Shown: piece after piece, positions 4,901 through 57,185 of the stretch
Layout of the letters: each line of letters starts with the position of its first letter
Position numbering within the stretch: the stretch's first letter is position 1
NCBI GenBank assembly: GCA_029256085.1
Contig: JAQSYP010000001.1
Span: 248,001-312,000, forward strand
Source: Caryophanales bacterium
GTDB lineage: Bacteria; Bacillota; Bacilli; CAJFEE01
Direction of reading: 5' to 3'
DNA length: 64,000 nt
Program-made: the position numbers and the translations under genes
The notes under the pieces: generated by a model
The model's database searches: none
The model's input: only the letters and a program-made list of their open reading frames with translations
What the model was told of the DNA's origin: nothing

Positions 4901-6283
4901 TTGAAAATTCATATCGTTCAGAAGGGCGATACACTGTATAAAATCGCCAAACAATATGGAGTAGATTTTCAAGAACTAAAAAATGCAAATGCACAACTTA
5001 GTAATCCAGAAATGATTTATCCAGGAATGAAAATTAAAGTTCCATCACAAGGTGTCGCAGTAAAAACAGAGACATTTAACGGTAAGGAATCCCCAACTCA
5101 AATGCTGCAGTCATTAATTACAGGTGCACCAAAGGAAAGTCCAGTACTACCTGCACAAGAATTTGCTGCTCCTTTTAAGGGAAAAGAGGTTCCAATTGCA
5201 CCACTACAGCAGGTTCAGCCAGTTCCTCAGGTAAAAGAGCAACCAATGCCAACGCCTGTACCTACTCCTGTTAAGGAGCAACCTATAGATATTAACAATT
5301 TCTATACGTTTAATGTTGCAATGGAGCCACCTAAACCAGTTAAAGAAAAGCCTGTAGCTCCTATCGTAAAGGAGAAACCAATGGATAAACCACTCTTATT
5401 TAGCCCTGTGGCAAAAGAGGAATTAAAACCACCGCCAGTAGTTGAAAAACCTGTTGAACAACCAATAGTTGCTCAGCAACTTGTTGATGACTGTGTACCA
5501 ATTCAGGAGCCTTATTGTTATCCACCAAACTATGTTTCACCTGAACAATGTGTTCCTTATCAACAAGCTAATTGGTGTCCGCCATATGGTGGGCAGTTAC
5601 CAATGGCACCCCCAGGACAATGGGCGGGACCGGTTGGACAGATGTTTCCTCCACAACAACAGTATCCGTTTATGCCGAACCCAGCTTCACAAGTTCAGGG
5701 AGTAACAGATACATTACCAACAGGAATGCCACCACAGGAAGAAACTCAACCACCAGTTGGTTTTCAAGCGGGTCAATTACCACCACAATATATGCAAGGT
5801 ATGCAGCCAAATATGATGCCACCACAATATATGCAAGGAATGCCACCAATGATGCCGCCACAATACATGCAAGGAATGCCACCAAATATGATGCCAACGC
5901 AGCAAATGCAAGGTGTTCCGCCAAATATGATGCCACCACAAGGGTTCGATACATCTGTGCAGGCTCCACCACAAAGTCAAGGTGGACCACAAGGAATGCA
6001 ACCATATATGCAAGCACCACCACAAATGAATGGAATGGGGCCAGGAATGCAGATGCCACCATATCCAATGCCAGGTACAAATGTACAAAATTTAAATGTA
6101 CCTTGGCAAATGCCTGGAAATCAACCAGTTGTTCCAGGGAAGGATGATTGTGGATGTGGTGAAATCCAAGGTGTAGCAGTACCACCTGGAATGCCAAATC
6201 CTGCATTTCGACCGGACTTTCCATATAATCCGCAATTTCCGGCTGATCCAAACGATTTTCAACCACCGAACGGAGATAGATAA
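4901..6283 (+). CDS. safA: SafA-type spore coat morphogenetic protein (LysM, Pro/Met/Gln-rich)
   Basis: The 460-residue product starts with one LysM domain (residues about 1-48, MKIHIVQKGDTLYKIAKQYG) that would bind spore cortex peptidoglycan. The rest is low complexity and rich in Pro, Gln, Met and Val, with KEQP/KEKP-type motifs and a block of 13-residue repeats near residues 294-344. This is the plan of SafA (ExsA in the B. cereus group), which organises the inner coat beneath the outer coat and exosporium. The start is TTG, 8 nt after AGGAGG (4887-4892). Long ORFs in other frames across the repeats are composition artefacts. The gene is monocistronic, with terminators on both sides. Confidence 0.85.
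   Translation: MKIHIVQKGDTLYKIAKQYGVDFQELKNANAQLSNPEMIYPGMKIKVPSQGVAVKTETFNGKESPTQMLQSLITGAPKESPVLPAQEFAAPFKGKEVPIAPLQQVQPVPQVKEQPMPTPVPTPVKEQPIDINNFYTFNVAMEPPKPVKEKPVAPIVKEKPMDKPLLFSPVAKEELKPPPVVEKPVEQPIVAQQLVDDCVPIQEPYCYPPNYVSPEQCVPYQQANWCPPYGGQLPMAPPGQWAGPVGQMFPPQQQYPFMPNPASQVQGVTDTLPTGMPPQEETQPPVGFQAGQLPPQYMQGMQPNMMPPQYMQGMPPMMPPQYMQGMPPNMMPTQQMQGVPPNMMPPQGFDTSVQAPPQSQGGPQGMQPYMQAPPQMNGMGPGMQMPPYPMPGTNVQNLNVPWQMPGNQPVVPGKDDCGCGEIQGVAVPPGMPNPAFRPDFPYNPQFPADPNDFQPPNGDR
5780..5932 (+). repeat. In-frame 39/36-bp tandem repeats inside safA
   Basis: Four consecutive units at 5780-5818, 5819-5854, 5855-5893 and 5894-5932 encode variants of PPQYMQGMPPNMM. The second unit lacks one codon and the fourth is the most diverged. 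Such arrays change copy number readily by slippage or recombination, so repeat number may differ between strains. Confidence 0.9.
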
Positions 6284-6321: not shown

Positions 6322-6713
6322 CTACTCATTAAAGACTCGTTAATCGATAAACTGTTCAAAAACTGTTCGTATATTTTTGACATGATTGACAAGTTGCAGA
6401 TAAAATCCCAAAAGTGGAAGATAAATCACTCAAAGTGGAAGATAAATCGACTCAACTGGAAGATATATCACTGAAAGTGGAAGACAAAAAACTTCTTCTT
6501 AAAATTCAAGCGCTCCTTTCAGATGAGAAAAAGTATATTTTTTTCGCAGTTTTTCCATCTTGCGATAAGAAATTACTCAAAGTGGACTAAGCAACCTCCG
6601 AGTTTACTAAGATTGACTTACCAATTTTGATGCATTTTCTATTTATTTACATATCGTTAAAATAATTGTGATAAAATAGGGAAATATTAACAATATATAG
6701 GGAGTTGAATGAT
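6322..6713. other. Intergenic region with 21-bp repeats upstream of nadE
   Basis: Apart from the 21-bp repeat array at 6391-6495, this gap holds CATCTTGCGATAA at about 6566-6578, which recurs at about 24394-24406 just after a palindromic repeat, and an isolated extra piece of the 21-bp unit near 6579-6590. A promoter for nadE probably lies in 6650-6680 (GATAAAAT near 6670 could be the -10). No confident RNA gene is visible. Confidence 0.6.
6391..6495 (+). repeat. 21-bp tandem repeat array, copy 1 (five units)
   Basis: Five contiguous 21-bp units occupy 6391-6411, 6412-6432, 6433-6453, 6454-6474 and 6475-6495. The core is AAGTGGAAGATAAATC plus five variable bases. Related units recur at 38758-38820 and, more diverged, at 56602-56724. 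In one frame the units read as a K-V-E-D-K-S-L type heptad, but no ribosome binding site precedes it. Confidence 0.85.
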
Positions 6714-23774: not shown

Positions 23775-24227
23775 ATGAAGGTCGTAATTCAACGCGTATC
23801 AGCTGCAGAAGTCAGTGTAGATAGTGAAATAGTCGGCAAAATAAACAATGGACTTCTACTATTAGTAGGGATAACCCATAGTGATGATGAAGCAGTGATT
23901 AAAACTATAGCCGATAAAATAGTTAACCTAAGAATATTTGAAGATGATGCTGAAAAAATGAACCTAAGTTTACTCGATGTTAAAGGGGAAATTTTATCAG
24001 TCTCACAATTCACACTGTATGCAGATTGTAAAAAGGGTAGAAGACCTGCATTTACTGATGCGGCTAGACCTGAATACGCGACTGAGCTGTATAATAAATT
24101 TAATGACATTTTAAAATCATACGATATTAAAGTGGAAACTGGGATGTTTGGAGCAATGATGGATGTAAAGCTTACGAACAAGGGCCCAGTTACAATCATA
24201 TTAGATAGTAATGAATTAATAAAATAG
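23775..24227 (+). CDS. dtd: D-aminoacyl-tRNA deacylase
   Basis: Dtd (150 residues) removes D-amino acids, and glycine from mis-charged tRNA-Ala. Both cross-subunit catalytic motifs are present: SQFTLYAD (the SQFTL motif) and NKGPVTI (the NxGPVT motif). It follows relA by 12 bp with GGGGTG as ribosome binding site, the same coupling as in B. subtilis. Its stop codon is inside the 5' arm of the terminator that ends the relA-dtd unit. Confidence 0.97.
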
Positions 24228-24252
24228 CGAGTGCTTAGGCACTCGTTATTTT
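24223..24252 (+). terminator. Rho-independent terminator after dtd
   Basis: AATAGCGAGTGC (24223-24234, overlapping the dtd stop) pairs with GCACTCGTTATT (24239-24250) around TTAG, ending in TTTT. Confidence 0.9.
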
Positions 24253-24283: not shown

Positions 24284-24393
24284 AAAAAACTGCTCACTTT
24301 CCGCGGGCACGGCCTCAGGCTATTTTTGCACGTTTCACTTGCAAAAATGGATTTTCGGCTCGTGCTGTTCCCGCTGGAGTCGAGCAGTTTTTT
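24284..24393. repeat. Dispersed palindromic element, copy A
   Basis: Perfect 12-bp ends AAAAAACTGCTC (24284-24295) and GAGCAGTTTTTT (24382-24393) enclose a conserved core with CTTTCCGCGGGCACGGCC and GGCTCGTGCTGTTCCCGC. A central hairpin runs TTTTTGCACGT...ACTTGCAAAAA with one mismatch. Copies B (34343-34450, reverse orientation) and C (56839-56944) share the core. It has no coding capacity and lies between dtd and the metal ATPase gene. The rest of the 24253-24550 gap holds only the ATPase promoter region. Confidence 0.9.
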
Positions 24394-24469
24394 CATCTTG
24401 CGATAACTCTACTATTAAAAGGACCTGGCAAAACCGAGTTCGTTTTAGTCATCAATTCTGCAAAAACAT

Positions 24470-32407: not shown

Positions 32408-32604
32408 ACAGAACAAAATGTCCTGAGATGTTCGTAAATATCCTTAAGTTATGACCTAACATATAAGATACGGGAATTTGAGTTTCAAGCGGCGTAAATG
32501 CCTCATCTATACGATAAGAGGACTTACAAAAACTTGAACAGAGTACCCACCTGCGAGAGGCAGGTTCATAACATAGGACTAACGGCACCATTGGGACACT
32601 GAAA
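32408..32604 (+). ncRNA. bsrA: 6S RNA (SsrS/BsrA type)
   Basis: About 195 nt between aspS and tcdA match the place and layout of Bacillus 6S-1 RNA, which binds SigA-RNA polymerase by mimicking an open promoter. The closing stem pairs TGTCC (32419-32423) with GGGACA (32593-32598). Between them lie the long imperfect hairpin arms and central bubble, and the 3' segment reads CGGCACCATTGGGACAC, as in other 6S RNAs. A good promoter and a terminator bracket it. Identification is from structure, neighbours and end motifs. An apparent ORF on the opposite strand (32406-32591) is a shadow. Confidence 0.88.
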
Positions 32605-32649: not shown

Positions 32650-32752
32650 TATAATGAAAGTATAAACTTCTGCGCAGTTCATACTTTCCTAACGCATAAG
32701 TGCAACTACGGCTCTGCCGTTGCCCTTAAGGCTCGGCAATCGCCGAGTTTTC
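32650..32752 (+). other. Structured non-coding element with three hairpins
   Basis: Immediately after TATAAT (32650-32655), GAAAGTATAAACT (32656-32668) pairs with AGTTCATACTTTC (32676-32688) around TCTGCGC. A second hairpin uses GCAA...CGGC/GCCGTTGC within 32702-32723, and a third, CTCGGC (32732-32737) with GCCGAG (32742-32747), is followed by TTTTCTTT like a terminator. No -35 at the right spacing is seen. It could be a small RNA, a tcdA leader or a dispersed repeat. The structure is read from the sequence; the role is unknown. Confidence 0.5.
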
Positions 32753-34342: not shown

Positions 34343-34450
34343 TCTAGGTGCTCGACTCCTGCGGGAATAGCACGAGCCGAAAATCCATTTTTGCAAGTGG
34401 GACTTGCAAAAATTAGTTGAGGCCGTGCCCGCGGAAAGCGAGCGCCTAGA
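34343..34450. repeat. Dispersed palindromic element, copy B (inverted orientation)
   Basis: This copy has ends TCTAGGTGCTCG (34343-34354) and CGAGCGCCTAGA (34439-34450, one mismatch) and, in reverse, the same core as copies A and C. The terminal sequences beyond the CTCG differ from A and C yet remain complementary. The inner hairpin TTTTTGCAAGT/ACTTGCAAAAA is perfect. Confidence 0.9.
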
Positions 34451-34569
34451 GCGAAATTAAATAGATTAATTACAGGATACTTTTTCAGTGAACTCGTTTT
34501 GCCACTTAGTCTCGAGGTTTTTTCTTCGAGTGATTAATACTTACTACAAAGTGAATTATTAACGCATTT

Positions 34570-35850
34570 TTATTTGTTATCCATTATTTCATTTATTTTA
34601 TTGTAAATTGATGCAAGTGTTTGCTCGTATTTACTCGTTTGTTTAGGGTGATAATATTTCGTCCCAGCAAGCCCACTTGGTAAGTAAACTTGAGGTATCC
34701 AACCACCTTCAAAGTCATGTGGATACTTATAACCTATACCACGACCTAATGAATCAGCACCTTTATAGTTAGCGGCTTTTAAATATAGTGGAATATCTCC
34801 ATATGTTTTAGAATGTAAATCAGCTATTGCAGCATCTAATGCTGAGTATGCAGAGTTTGATTTAGGAGATAGTGCTAATTCTACTACAATTGATGCTAAA
34901 GGAATTCTTGCTTCTGGAAAACCCACTCGTTCAGCAGCATCTATTGCAGCCAATGTTCTTGGGCCAAGCCCGGGATTGGCAAGTCCAATATCCTCATATG
35001 CAATAACTGTCATTCTTCTTGCAATACTTTGGAGATCACCAGCTTCTATAAGTCTTGCTAGATAATGTAATGCTGCGTTTACATCACTTCCACGAATTGA
35101 TTTTTGAAAGGCGGATAAAACGTTATAATGAGACTCTTCCTTATCATGCGAGAAGTTCTTTTTCTGGATACACTCTACTACTATCTCTGGTGTGATTATT
35201 ATTTTGTGGTTTTCATTAGGCGCAGTAGATAAGACTGCAAGTTCTAAGCCATTTAGTGCAGATCTTATATCTCCCCCTGAAACAGAGGCTAAGTGTAATA
35301 ATGCATCATCAGAAATTTCAACATCAAATTCCCCTAAACCATTATTTTCATCTTTTAGAGCCTTTTTTAAAGCAGTAGTAATCTCTTCAGGAGATAATGA
35401 AAATAATTCGAAAATATGACATCTGCTTCTAATTGCAGGATTTATTGAATGAAATGGGTTAGAAGTTGTACATCCTATAAGTATTAATAAGCCATTTTCA
35501 AGATATGGAAGTAATAAATCTTGTTTATCTTTATTTAGTCTATGGACTTCATCCAAGATCAATATTAAGTTTCCTCCACACATTTTTGCCTCTTCTACAA
35601 CAATTTCTATATCTTTTTTGTTGTTTATTACGGCATTTAACATTCTGTGGGGCATTTTTAAAGTACCTGCAATAGCTGTTGCTATTGAAGTTTTACCAAC
35701 TCCAGGTGGTCCATACAGAATCATTGATGATAAATAATTTGATGTAACCATTCTATTTAATTGTTTTCCTTGTCCTAGTAAATGCTCTTGACCAATTATG
35801 TCACATATGTTTTTTGGTCGCATTCGGAACGCAAGTGGTTTTTTGGCCAT
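34570..35850 (-). CDS. rarA: Replication-associated recombination ATPase RarA (MgsA)
   Basis: This 426-residue AAA+ ATPase acts at stalled replication forks. Walker A is GPPGVGKTS, Walker B LILDEVHRLN, sensor I IGCTTSNPFHSINPAI, and the C-terminal tetramerisation domain contains DLQSIARRMTVIAYEDIGLA and LYLKAANYKGADSLGRG. In B. subtilis the same position holds yrvN, divergent from cymR. The - strand start has AGGAG upstream. The 113-bp gap to cymR holds promoter-like AT-rich sequence for both genes. Confidence 0.95.
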   Translation of the reverse strand: MAKKPLAFRMRPKNICDIIGQEHLLGQGKQLNRMVTSNYLSSMILYGPPGVGKTSIATAIAGTLKMPHRMLNAVINNKKDIEIVVEEAKMCGGNLILILDEVHRLNKDKQDLLLPYLENGLLILIGCTTSNPFHSINPAIRSRCHIFELFSLSPEEITTALKKALKDENNGLGEFDVEISDDALLHLASVSGGDIRSALNGLELAVLSTAPNENHKIIITPEIVVECIQKKNFSHDKEESHYNVLSAFQKSIRGSDVNAALHYLARLIEAGDLQSIARRMTVIAYEDIGLANPGLGPRTLAAIDAAERVGFPEARIPLASIVVELALSPKSNSAYSALDAAIADLHSKTYGDIPLYLKAANYKGADSLGRGIGYKYPHDFEGGWIPQVYLPSGLAGTKYYHPKQTSKYEQTLASIYNKINEIMDNK

Positions 35851-38693: not shown

Positions 38694-38757
38694 AAAGTTA
38701 AATAAAGTTTAAAATCTAGACAAGCTTATTTACGTATATTTTTCTCCGTAATTCGAC

Positions 38758-38820
38758 AAATGGAAGATAAAATTCAAAAAGTGGAAGATAAATCACCCAA
38801 ACTGGAAGATAAAAATTCTT
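38758..38820 (+). repeat. 21-bp tandem repeat array, copy 2 (three units)
   Basis: Units at 38758-38778, 38779-38799 and 38800-38820 have the core (AAA/AAG/AAC)TGGAAGATAAA, the same as the array at 6391-6495. It lies in the 38694-38971 gap between mnmA and the TPR gene; the rest of that gap shows nothing beyond a likely promoter. Confidence 0.85.
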
Positions 38821-55471: not shown

Positions 55472-56167
55472 TTGAAGATAGCAATCATTGGAGCAATGGA
55501 AGAAGAAGTTCAAATTTTAAGAGAACAGATTACTAACCGTGAAACAATTACAATAGCAAACTCAGAATTTACACTTGGACAACTTGAAGGTAAAGAAGTA
55601 GTTTTACTTAAATCAGGCATTGGAAAAGTAAATGCTGCAATAGGTACCACTATTCTATTAGAAAAATTTAATCCGGATTTAATTATTAATACAGGTTCAG
55701 CTGGTGGATATGATCCTGATTTAAATGTGGGTGATTTAGTAATTTCATCAGAAGTTAGACACCATGACGTAGATGTCACTGCGTTTGGTTATGAATATGG
55801 ACAAGTTCCTGGTTTACCTGCTGCATTTGTTGGGGATGAGAAATTTGCAGATTTAACAGTAGATGTTGCTAGAAAAGTATTAGAGCAACAAGTTAAAAAG
55901 GGATTAATAGTTACAGGCGATAGTTTTATGAATGACCCTGTAAGAGTTGAATTTGTACGTGGGAAATTTGAAAATTTAATAGCGGTAGAGATGGAAGCAG
56001 CTTCTATTGCACAAGTTTGTCATCAATTCGATAAACCGTTTGTCGTAATTCGTTCATTATCAGATATTGCTGGCAAAGAATCTGATGTTTCATTTGAAGC
56101 ATTTATACATACTGCAGCACAGCACTCTACAAAATTAATATTAGAAGTTCTTAAAGAGCTAAAGTAG
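55472..56167 (+). CDS. mtnN: 5'-methylthioadenosine/S-adenosylhomocysteine nucleosidase
   Basis: MtnN (231 residues) removes adenine from MTA and SAH, recycling products of methylation and polyamine synthesis. Family motifs are [16 protein letters not shown], the catalytic [10 protein letters not shown] and [17 protein letters not shown] with the base Asp. It starts at TTG 55472, with AATGAGG upstream. In B. subtilis it lies in yrrT-mtnN-mccA-mccB-yrhC; here only yrhC follows, after an 82-bp gap. Confidence 0.96.
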
Positions 56168-56249
56168 ACTTTTTCCTTTATTTTACTAACCTATTTTAAA
56201 TTAAAATATGTTACTCTTATGGAGATGATTTTAATTGGAGGGGTTAGTA

Positions 56250-56504
56250 TTGGATTCCGTAAAGAAGGACTTAAGAAATAAGATTAGCGACTATTCACAG
56301 TTTGCTAAGATACTATTAATGATAAGTGTTTTCTTTAGCTTAGGAATCGCTTTTCAAGGTACAGAAAAATCCCTTAATCAGTTGTTTACAATGATGGGTG
56401 TTACATTAGCTTTTCTACTAGGTTCAACCATTATATTTAGTAGAGTAAAAAAGCTTCAAAAGATCTTAAACGAAGAATTAGAAGAAGACAATCTATCTGC
56501 ATAA
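56250..56504 (+). CDS. yrhC: YrhC-like small membrane protein
   Basis: The 84-residue product has two hydrophobic helices (about residues 18-36 and 46-66) and a charged C-terminus, the layout of the YrhC family. TTG at 56250 is chosen because GGAGGGG (56236-56243) precedes it; TTG 56235 lies too close to any site. In B. subtilis yrhC ends the CymR-controlled yrrT-mtnN-mccAB-yrhC operon. Here mccA, mccB and yrrT are missing, but the two flanking genes remain. The function is unknown. Confidence 0.8.
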   Translation: MDSVKKDLRNKISDYSQFAKILLMISVFFSLGIAFQGTEKSLNQLFTMMGVTLAFLLGSTIIFSRVKKLQKILNEELEEDNLSA

Positions 56505-56556: not shown

Positions 56557-56601
56557 GAAGTTTAAGAAAGTGTTGTTTTATAATTTGGATTAAATATTGC
56601 G

Positions 56602-56724
56602 AAAAGTTAAGGATATATTTTAAAAGTTAATAATAAATCGTTAAAAGTTAAGGATATATTTTAAAAGTTAATGATAAATCGTTAAAAGTTAAGGATATAT
56701 TTTAAAAGTTAATGATAAAAGGTC
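56602..56724 (+). repeat. 20/21-bp tandem repeats in a 41-bp superunit, copy 3
   Basis: AAAAGTTAAGGATATATTTT (20 bp) alternates with AAAAGTTAATGATAAATCGTT-like units (21 bp) three times: 56602-56642, 56643-56683 and 56684-56724. The pattern resembles the AAAGTGGAAGATAAATC repeats at 6391 and 38758 but with GG replaced by TA. It follows the yrhC terminator. Confidence 0.8.
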
Positions 56725-56770
56725 AAAAGGCACCGAGACGAAATCAAGATGCCTATTGTGAACAGTCTGG

Positions 56771-56804
56771 GACAATCTATCTGCAATAGATTGTCTTTTT
56801 TTTT
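56771..56804 (+). terminator. Orphan terminator-like hairpin
   Basis: GACAATCTAT (56771-56780) pairs with ATAGATTGTC (56786-56795), followed by nine T. No gene ends nearby apart from the yrhC unit with its own terminator, so an RNA covering the repeats at 56602-56724 is possible. Confidence 0.6.
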
Positions 56805-56838: not shown

Positions 56839-56944
56839 AAAACTGCTCGCTTTCCGCGGGCACGGCCTCAGGCTATTTTTGCTAGTTTTACTAGCAAAAA
56901 TGGATTTTCGGCTCGTGCTGTTCCCGCTGGAGTCGAGCAGTTTT
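56839..56944. repeat. Dispersed palindromic element, copy C
   Basis: The ends are AAAACTGCTC (56839-56848) and GAGCAGTTTT (56935-56944). The core is nearly identical to copy A. The inner hairpin reads TTTTTGCTAGT/ACTAGCAAAAA, a compensated change from the AAGT/ACTT of copy B. Confidence 0.9.
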
Positions 56945-57185
56945 CCGCAGCGTTTGAAGCTAATTATTTTTTAAAAGGATTTGGCTTTAGTCAAGTTTTT
57001 TTAAATAGATGATGCAGTATGTGGTATCAAAAATGGTTTTGTTATTTCTATCAATCATTTTTAATTTTCTATCAACCACTTTTTCGGGAAACTGACGATT
57101 CTATCATCAATATTGTCAAAACCACACTTTATCCCCACTACATAAAACTGATACTGATGCTTACAGGGCACCGTTTTCTTTAAGT

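Follow-up and report, generated by a model that had tools for sequence, protein, structure and literature searches.

The window considered here, a stretch of 64,000 nucleotides from a Caryophanales bacterium (assembly GCA_029256085.1, contig JAQSYP010000001.1, positions 248,001 to 312,000), harbours three copies of a palindromic element, each located behind open reading frames (ORFs). Copy A lies behind ORF 23775-24227, copy B behind the minus-strand ORF 34570-35850, and copy C behind ORFs 55472-56167 and 56235-56504. From their appearance, we take the products of 23775-24227, 34570-35850 and 55472-56167 to be similar to Dtd, RarA and an MTA/SAH nucleosidase, respectively. The copies (locus entries L031, L032 and L033 for A, B and C) and the hairpins around them are as follows.

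24227 to 24252, plus strand: predicted terminator of ORF 23775-24227, upstream of copy A (terminator prediction, L031); its T-run starts 50 bp before the core
24284 to 24393, plus strand: copy A (GGCT variant), made up of outer arms, core and an inner hairpin with a single stem mismatch (sequence and DNA fold)
24417 to 24447, plus strand: terminator-like second hairpin (AAAAGGACCTGGC..) that follows copy A; it is a divergent version of the shared AAGGACTTGGCAAAGCCAAGTTTATTTT (sequence reading)
34343 to 34451, minus strand: copy B, with outer arms TCTAGGCGCTCG (5') and CGAGCACCTAGA (3'), ACTA variant; no upstream terminator found (sequence and DNA fold)
56769 to 56804, plus strand: predicted terminator upstream of copy C (terminator prediction, L033); its T-run starts 52 bp before the core
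56839 to 56944, plus strand: copy C, with AAACTGCTCG arms, GGCT variant and TAGT/ACTA inner stem (sequence and DNA fold)
56973 to 57003, plus strand: terminator-like second hairpin (AAAAGGATTTGGC..) behind copy C (sequence reading)

The three copies have in common CTTTCCGCGGGCACGGCCTC...GGCTCGTGC...CCCGC, with identities of 95% between A and C over 106 nt, and of 89% (A/B) and 88% (B/C) over 95 nt. A preliminary description of this DNA had reported a palindromic element with a shared core at three places, with inner hairpins that differ and still pair (AAGT/ACTT in B, TAGT/ACTA in C, and a single mismatch in A), and this observation is confirmed. Copies A, B and C are real long hairpins: folded as single-stranded DNA, they reach -30.9, -31.7 and -33.4 kcal/mol (z of -6.4, -7.4 and -8.0), and for each of them none of 200 shuffles was as stable as the real copy.

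Other repeats are present in the same window. A second repeat family (GGAAAGTATAAACTTCTGCGCAGTTCATACTTTCC ... GGCTCGGCAATCGCCGAG) occupies positions 32656-32751, directly behind the 6S RNA (32417-32601), and recurs near several hairpin copies. Two distant places (6388-6488 and 38734-38813) hold 21-nt direct repeats around AAAGTGGAAGATAAATC, and three copies of a 41-nt-spaced repeat (GTTAAGGATATATTTTAAAAGTTAATGATAAATCG) are found at 56589-56729, just upstream of copy C. The 36/39-nt in-frame-looking repeats at 5741-5929 (CCACCACAATATATGCAAGG...) probably belong to a repetitive protein.

The three copies belong to a much larger set. A search of the genome with the core, as the preliminary description had recommended, gave 70 places instead of three: the 20-nt core start CTTTCCGCGGGCACGGCCTC was sought with up to three mismatches in the 2.63-Mb genome of 17 contigs, and the reversed-pattern control gave none. 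This is the full count; two narrower scans of the same genome covered just 40 and 21 of 84 initial candidates. All 70 places were extracted to read the layout of the unit. The 5' half is formed by an outer arm, GCTCG, CTTTCCGCGGGCACGGCCTCA, either ACTA or GGCT joined to ATTTTTGCAAGT, and the loop; the 3' half then runs through ACTTGCAAAAATGGATTTTC, GGCTCGTGC, TGTT, CCCGCTGG, and AGTCGAGC or a mini-palindrome, to the other outer arm. Four copies without a recognised 3' half (L023, L038, L074 and L079) were left out before counting. Among the other 66, a mini-palindrome (GGAAATGTATACATTTCC, CGAAATGCATGCATTTCG or a variant) is present at the 3' seam in 20, and ACT stands beside GCTCG in 40; the outer arms fall into classes. 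Exact hairpin starts of the form GCTYRCTTTCC occur at 95 places (control, 2), and 37 of these run into inner modules other than the core. The family comprises about a hundred nested hairpin elements just behind genes, and the core is one interchangeable layer within a hairpin superfamily.

Placement was read against a rough gene map of ORFs of at least 80 amino acids. In 56 of the 70 copies the ORF located 5' of the element is directed towards it, and the surrounding gene pairs are (+,+) in 35 cases, (+,-) in 21, (-,-) in 12 and divergent (-,+) in two. In 36 of the 70 copies a terminator is predicted on the strand of the element within 150 bp upstream, its T-run starting at a median of 54 bp before CTTTCC (quartiles 46.5-58). 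The opposite strand of the identical stretches gave 16 of 70, and random 145-nt pieces of the window gave 13 of 400, a mostly coding background, which makes the difference from ordinary gene ends look larger than it is. The upstream terminators are not the same in different copies, and behind many class-1 copies stands a second terminator, AAGGACTTGGCAAAGCCAAGTTTATTTT, which they share. Neighbouring hairpin starts less than 1 kb apart form 10 convergent pairs, two same-strand pairs and no divergent pair.

Arm and centre are mutually independent. The class-2 arm TGTTGATTTGCGCTTTCGG (up to three mismatches) was found at 26 places in the genome (control, 0), several of which enclose the core and others quite different hairpins, and the core is also missing from L157 and L158, which have the class-1 arm ACACTCGCAGAAACTGC. 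The same kind of exchange is seen further inside: the apex GAGCCTGTAGTCTCGC is present in 12 elements, and the stem block below it varies from one to another and pairs within each (AAACC/GGTTT in L172, GGAACC/GGGTTCC in L174, AAGTCA/TGACTT in L191, ACGATCT/AGATCGT in L139), with a pairing score of 7.0 within elements versus 3.7 between them (110 comparisons). Mini-palindromes are present or absent at fixed seams. The sequence GAAANGYATRCNTTTC occurs at 38 places (control, 0), all 38 of them perfect palindromes of four types; a listed hairpin start is no more than 160 bp away from 31 of them, and for two others (L146 and L153) the neighbouring hairpin was identified by its arms. The remaining five are four hairpins that appear truncated by eye, and L207, a perfect palindrome in which the mini-palindrome closes the outer arm with no core between. 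L179 and L190 have flanks in common, and differ by GTCC versus GCGAAACGCATGCGTTTC and AGTCT versus GGAAAAGTATACTTTTCC; L189 keeps an intact outer stem without the inner module; and in L026, L029 and L030 the 3' half of the centre has been converted into the complement of the 5' half.

The substitutions in the stems were examined in an alignment of 45 of the 70 copies, which left out the four without a 3' half, the 20 whose 3' seam holds a mini-palindrome, and L066, in which the inner part is deleted. In this alignment 94.5% of the cells are paired, and 55 cells are changed on both sides, where shuffles give 14.6 and slid controls no more than 17. Such a pattern is usually taken as selection on the fold, but a split by stem alters the picture. 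Two-sided cells, one-sided mismatches and one-sided GU cells number 1, 13 and 7 in the core stem (16 pairs), 5, 22 and 4 in the inner stem (12 pairs), and 49, 59 and 1 in the outer arms (10 pairs). The two-sided signal lies nearly all in the outer arms, tracks the arm classes and has almost no GU intermediates, which argues for exchange of both arms as a block. An independent test agrees with block exchange: the complementarity score of the outer arms is 5.8 when both come from one copy, 3.3 when they come from copies of different arm class (2676 comparisons) and 3.6 when shuffled. However, only 23 of 66 copies pair better than the 95th percentile of shuffles. The proposal that outer arms differ and yet remain complementary is upheld by the within-copy score, save that the outer stem of copy B has one mismatch. 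In a fold-selected RNA, two-sided changes should outnumber one-sided ones in the conserved stems; the core and inner stems together (28 pairs) have 6 two-sided cells versus 35 one-sided mismatch and 11 one-sided GU cells. The preliminary description had offered two causes for changes on both sides of a stem, selection on the fold or a mobile, palindrome-dependent mechanism. The first, by compensatory point changes, is not supported by these core-stem counts, which come close to the situation it had named as adverse to a fold-based function, in which unpaired substitutions are as frequent as paired ones; the second fits best.

Palindromic repeats of this style span several families of Bacilli. 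An 18-nt core start (up to one mismatch) was found in 29 of 398 genomes of the class, at 68 places in the genome studied here and at up to 26 in others. The only genome of the same family among those searched (G001) has no copy, and BLAST at 1e-4 matched none of 40 relatives. A 24-mer that includes the inner stem of the present elements returned two named species, Caryophanon latum and Evansella clarkii, in a search that may omit the genome of origin. A phage search gave no match; two IMG/VR contigs with the core 18-mer were set aside, as no hairpin was seen in them by eye. Two Kurthia plasmids match; the one that was read closely has the hairpin within an insertion sequence (IS) of the IS1182 family with ends AAGAGGCTGGGACA, flanked by an internal terminator on one side and the transposase gene on the other. 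The same layout is found in Staphylococcus epidermidis, S. aureus ISSau3, S. arlettae and Peribacillus, whose hairpin has outer arms GTTGATTT...AATCAAC that resemble class 2. One Staphylococcus-type query matched 48 Staphylococcus plasmid records, and hairpin and transposase matches lie 112 bp apart in each of the eight records with listed transposase coordinates. Block order, as read by eye, and orientation of the present elements are those of the IS1182 left-end hairpins, with BLAST support of 90% over 40 nt and of 78% over 64 nt (Staphylococcus-type query). The Staphylococcus hairpins thus appear to be related to the core, judging by the order of short blocks and the 64-nt match rather than by a full alignment. 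In Priestia, an element of about 338 bp with ends GAGGCTGGGACA/TGTCCCAGCCTC contains the hairpin; three copies were aligned, and their likeness is confined to the stretch between the terminal inverted repeats (TIRs) and stops at these ends. From its sequence, this element is an IS1182-type MITE that carries the hairpin. IS1182 elements examined from Enterococcus, Ligilactobacillus and Paenibacillus are without it, so the hairpin is inessential to the IS1182 family.

The genome under study retains one IS1182 remnant, L130. It has the same ends and a terminator, and its hairpin shares an apex with 11 other elements of this genome. L130 is also the only one of its loci with an IS1182 transposase match; this is a short fragment (query residues 2-36), and no intact copy of the transposase was found in the genome. 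Exact GAGGCTGGGACA ends occur three times. Around the solo copies, an inverted word of at least 13 nt flanks 1 of 70 (control, 7 of 700); in other genomes this test covered 18 of 29 loci, the hairpin in the rest not having been located by the script. The IS1182 left ends L128, L163, L164 and L130 each have an internal terminator, and these differ in sequence; the L130 terminator and the one preceding hairpin copy L027 share 97% identity over 38 nt. The Peribacillus elements (L169 and L171, about 1432-1671) have an inverted pair, AGACTGTAGACAAA / TTTGCCTACAGTCT, 210-212 nt apart, which flanks the hairpin and is MITE-like inside the left end of the IS.

The explanation that we favour, and to which we would give about an even chance, is that these elements are non-autonomous, palindrome-based mobile DNA. 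In this view a hairpin cassette, of a type likewise carried by IS1182-family ISs and their MITEs, has multiplied in the genome on its own, with its solo copies placed behind the terminators of genes; its copying would need the palindrome as DNA, and whole hairpins would insert into, or replace, other hairpins, as with the target stem-loops of IS1272. Past activity would have been supplied by an IS1182-type transposase that is no longer intact in the genome; the step from IS-borne cassette to solo copies is one that we infer. On this explanation, what preserves the pairing would be the gain and loss of modules as entire hairpins rather than selection on RNA that restores individual pairs, and the entry of hairpins into hairpins would explain the independence of arm and centre, the perfect mini-palindromes at fixed seams and the clean losses. 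Several results count against it: the solo copies are without flanking TIRs, the genome has just a transposase fragment and three exact GAGGCTGGGACA ends, the outer arms pair beyond the 95th percentile of shuffles in no more than 23 of 66 copies, and three of the IS1182 elements examined are without the hairpin. IS1272, a member of the IS1182 family, is reported in the available portion of PMC5678879 to transpose into target inverted repeats, which it replaces, and to produce no target duplications. A more specific version, which we advance tentatively and with considerable doubt, is that the hairpin itself is the unit of movement, that structure-dependent stem-loop replacement builds concentric palindromes behind terminators, and that IS1182-type transposases were the past engine and IS1182 elements the intergeneric vehicles.

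A process without any transposase may produce much of the same pattern: segmental duplication and gene conversion would spread the palindromes, and replication template-switching within hairpins would copy arm onto arm, which accounts for perfect palindromes and block-wise compensation. The centres of L026, L029 and L030, with a 3' half that is a perfect complement of the 5' half, are of this kind, as are the block-wise two-sided changes with a single GU cell in the outer arms and the invariably perfect mini-palindromes; the clean inner losses in L189, L066 and L132 resemble hairpin deletions. Taken alone, however, such a process leaves unexplained both the approximately 100 dispersed copies behind unrelated terminators and the same cassette design in IS1182 elements of other genera. 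We regard a transposase-free origin as rather unlikely; some contribution from template-switching and gene conversion is probable, and these two processes might even account for everything.

Less probable again is a structured RNA at mRNA 3' ends, serving stability or attenuation, with its fold under selection. The strong folds, the oriented placement behind genes, and the excess of paired and two-sided cells over shuffles would all suit such an RNA, but one-sided changes prevail in the core stems (46 against 6), the same arms enclose entirely different inner modules, and 36 of 70 copies lie past a predicted terminator, where little mRNA is expected. An Rfam search of the window gave four matches, none of them on copies A, B or C. 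An RNA role behind genes is possible, and the substitution pattern does not show such a role. Mobilisation as REP/BIME elements by a RAYT (Y1 transposase) is very improbable despite the many extragenic palindromes, because the RAYT that the preliminary description had suggested looking for is absent as judged by PF01797 (Y1_Tnp), with no match in this draft genome and a control search positive in 5 of 14 known genomes, and because the element is about 108 nt long versus the 20-40 bp REP unit given in the available text of PMC3733652. Integron attC sites were set aside since the copies are scattered, outside cassette arrays.

If the mobile-cassette explanation is true, the nested modules together with the IS1182 link would tie the question of how extragenic palindromes spread without a RAYT to that of what the structure-targeting IS1182 transposases do in nature. 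The exchange of palindrome blocks calls for caution, for it can yield two-sided stem changes that covariation tests would call RNA selection. The literature searched offered no mechanism for palindromic repeats of this type in Bacilli.

With regard to known systems, it had been suggested that the element resembles Bacillaceae repeats and might already be described; relatives do exist in other Bacilli, but no paper was found with the core strings, and no description of the family in the literature on Bacillus palindromic repeats or on IS1182 with palindromes, MITEs or hairpins. Bhal-1 of Bacillus halodurans, an intergenic stem-loop repeat family of 74 bp and 36 copies in the available text of PMC2267715, is similar in kind and, compared by description, a possible relative. 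REP/BIME elements and their RAYT are likewise extragenic, palindromic and numerous, whereas the present family is longer, has nested modules and is without a Y1 transposase. Stem-loop replacement by IS1272 would explain the exchange of whole hairpins; in the available portion of PMC5678879, the demonstration concerns a complete IS in S. aureus and not elements made of a hairpin alone. Unlike the IS1182 ISs and MITEs, the window copies have neither a transposase nor recognisable terminal inverted repeats: the classical MITE has TIRs around each copy, as in the Priestia relative, and the IS1182 element proper has an intact DDE transposase beside the hairpin. Several of these elements (the Kurthia IS, the ISSau3/ISSep1 type, those of S. 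arlettae and Peribacillus, and the Priestia MITE) nonetheless carry a hairpin of like architecture, CTTTCC..CGGG..apex..CCCGCAGGAGTC, which in them stands behind an internal terminator and in the same orientation as in the present family.
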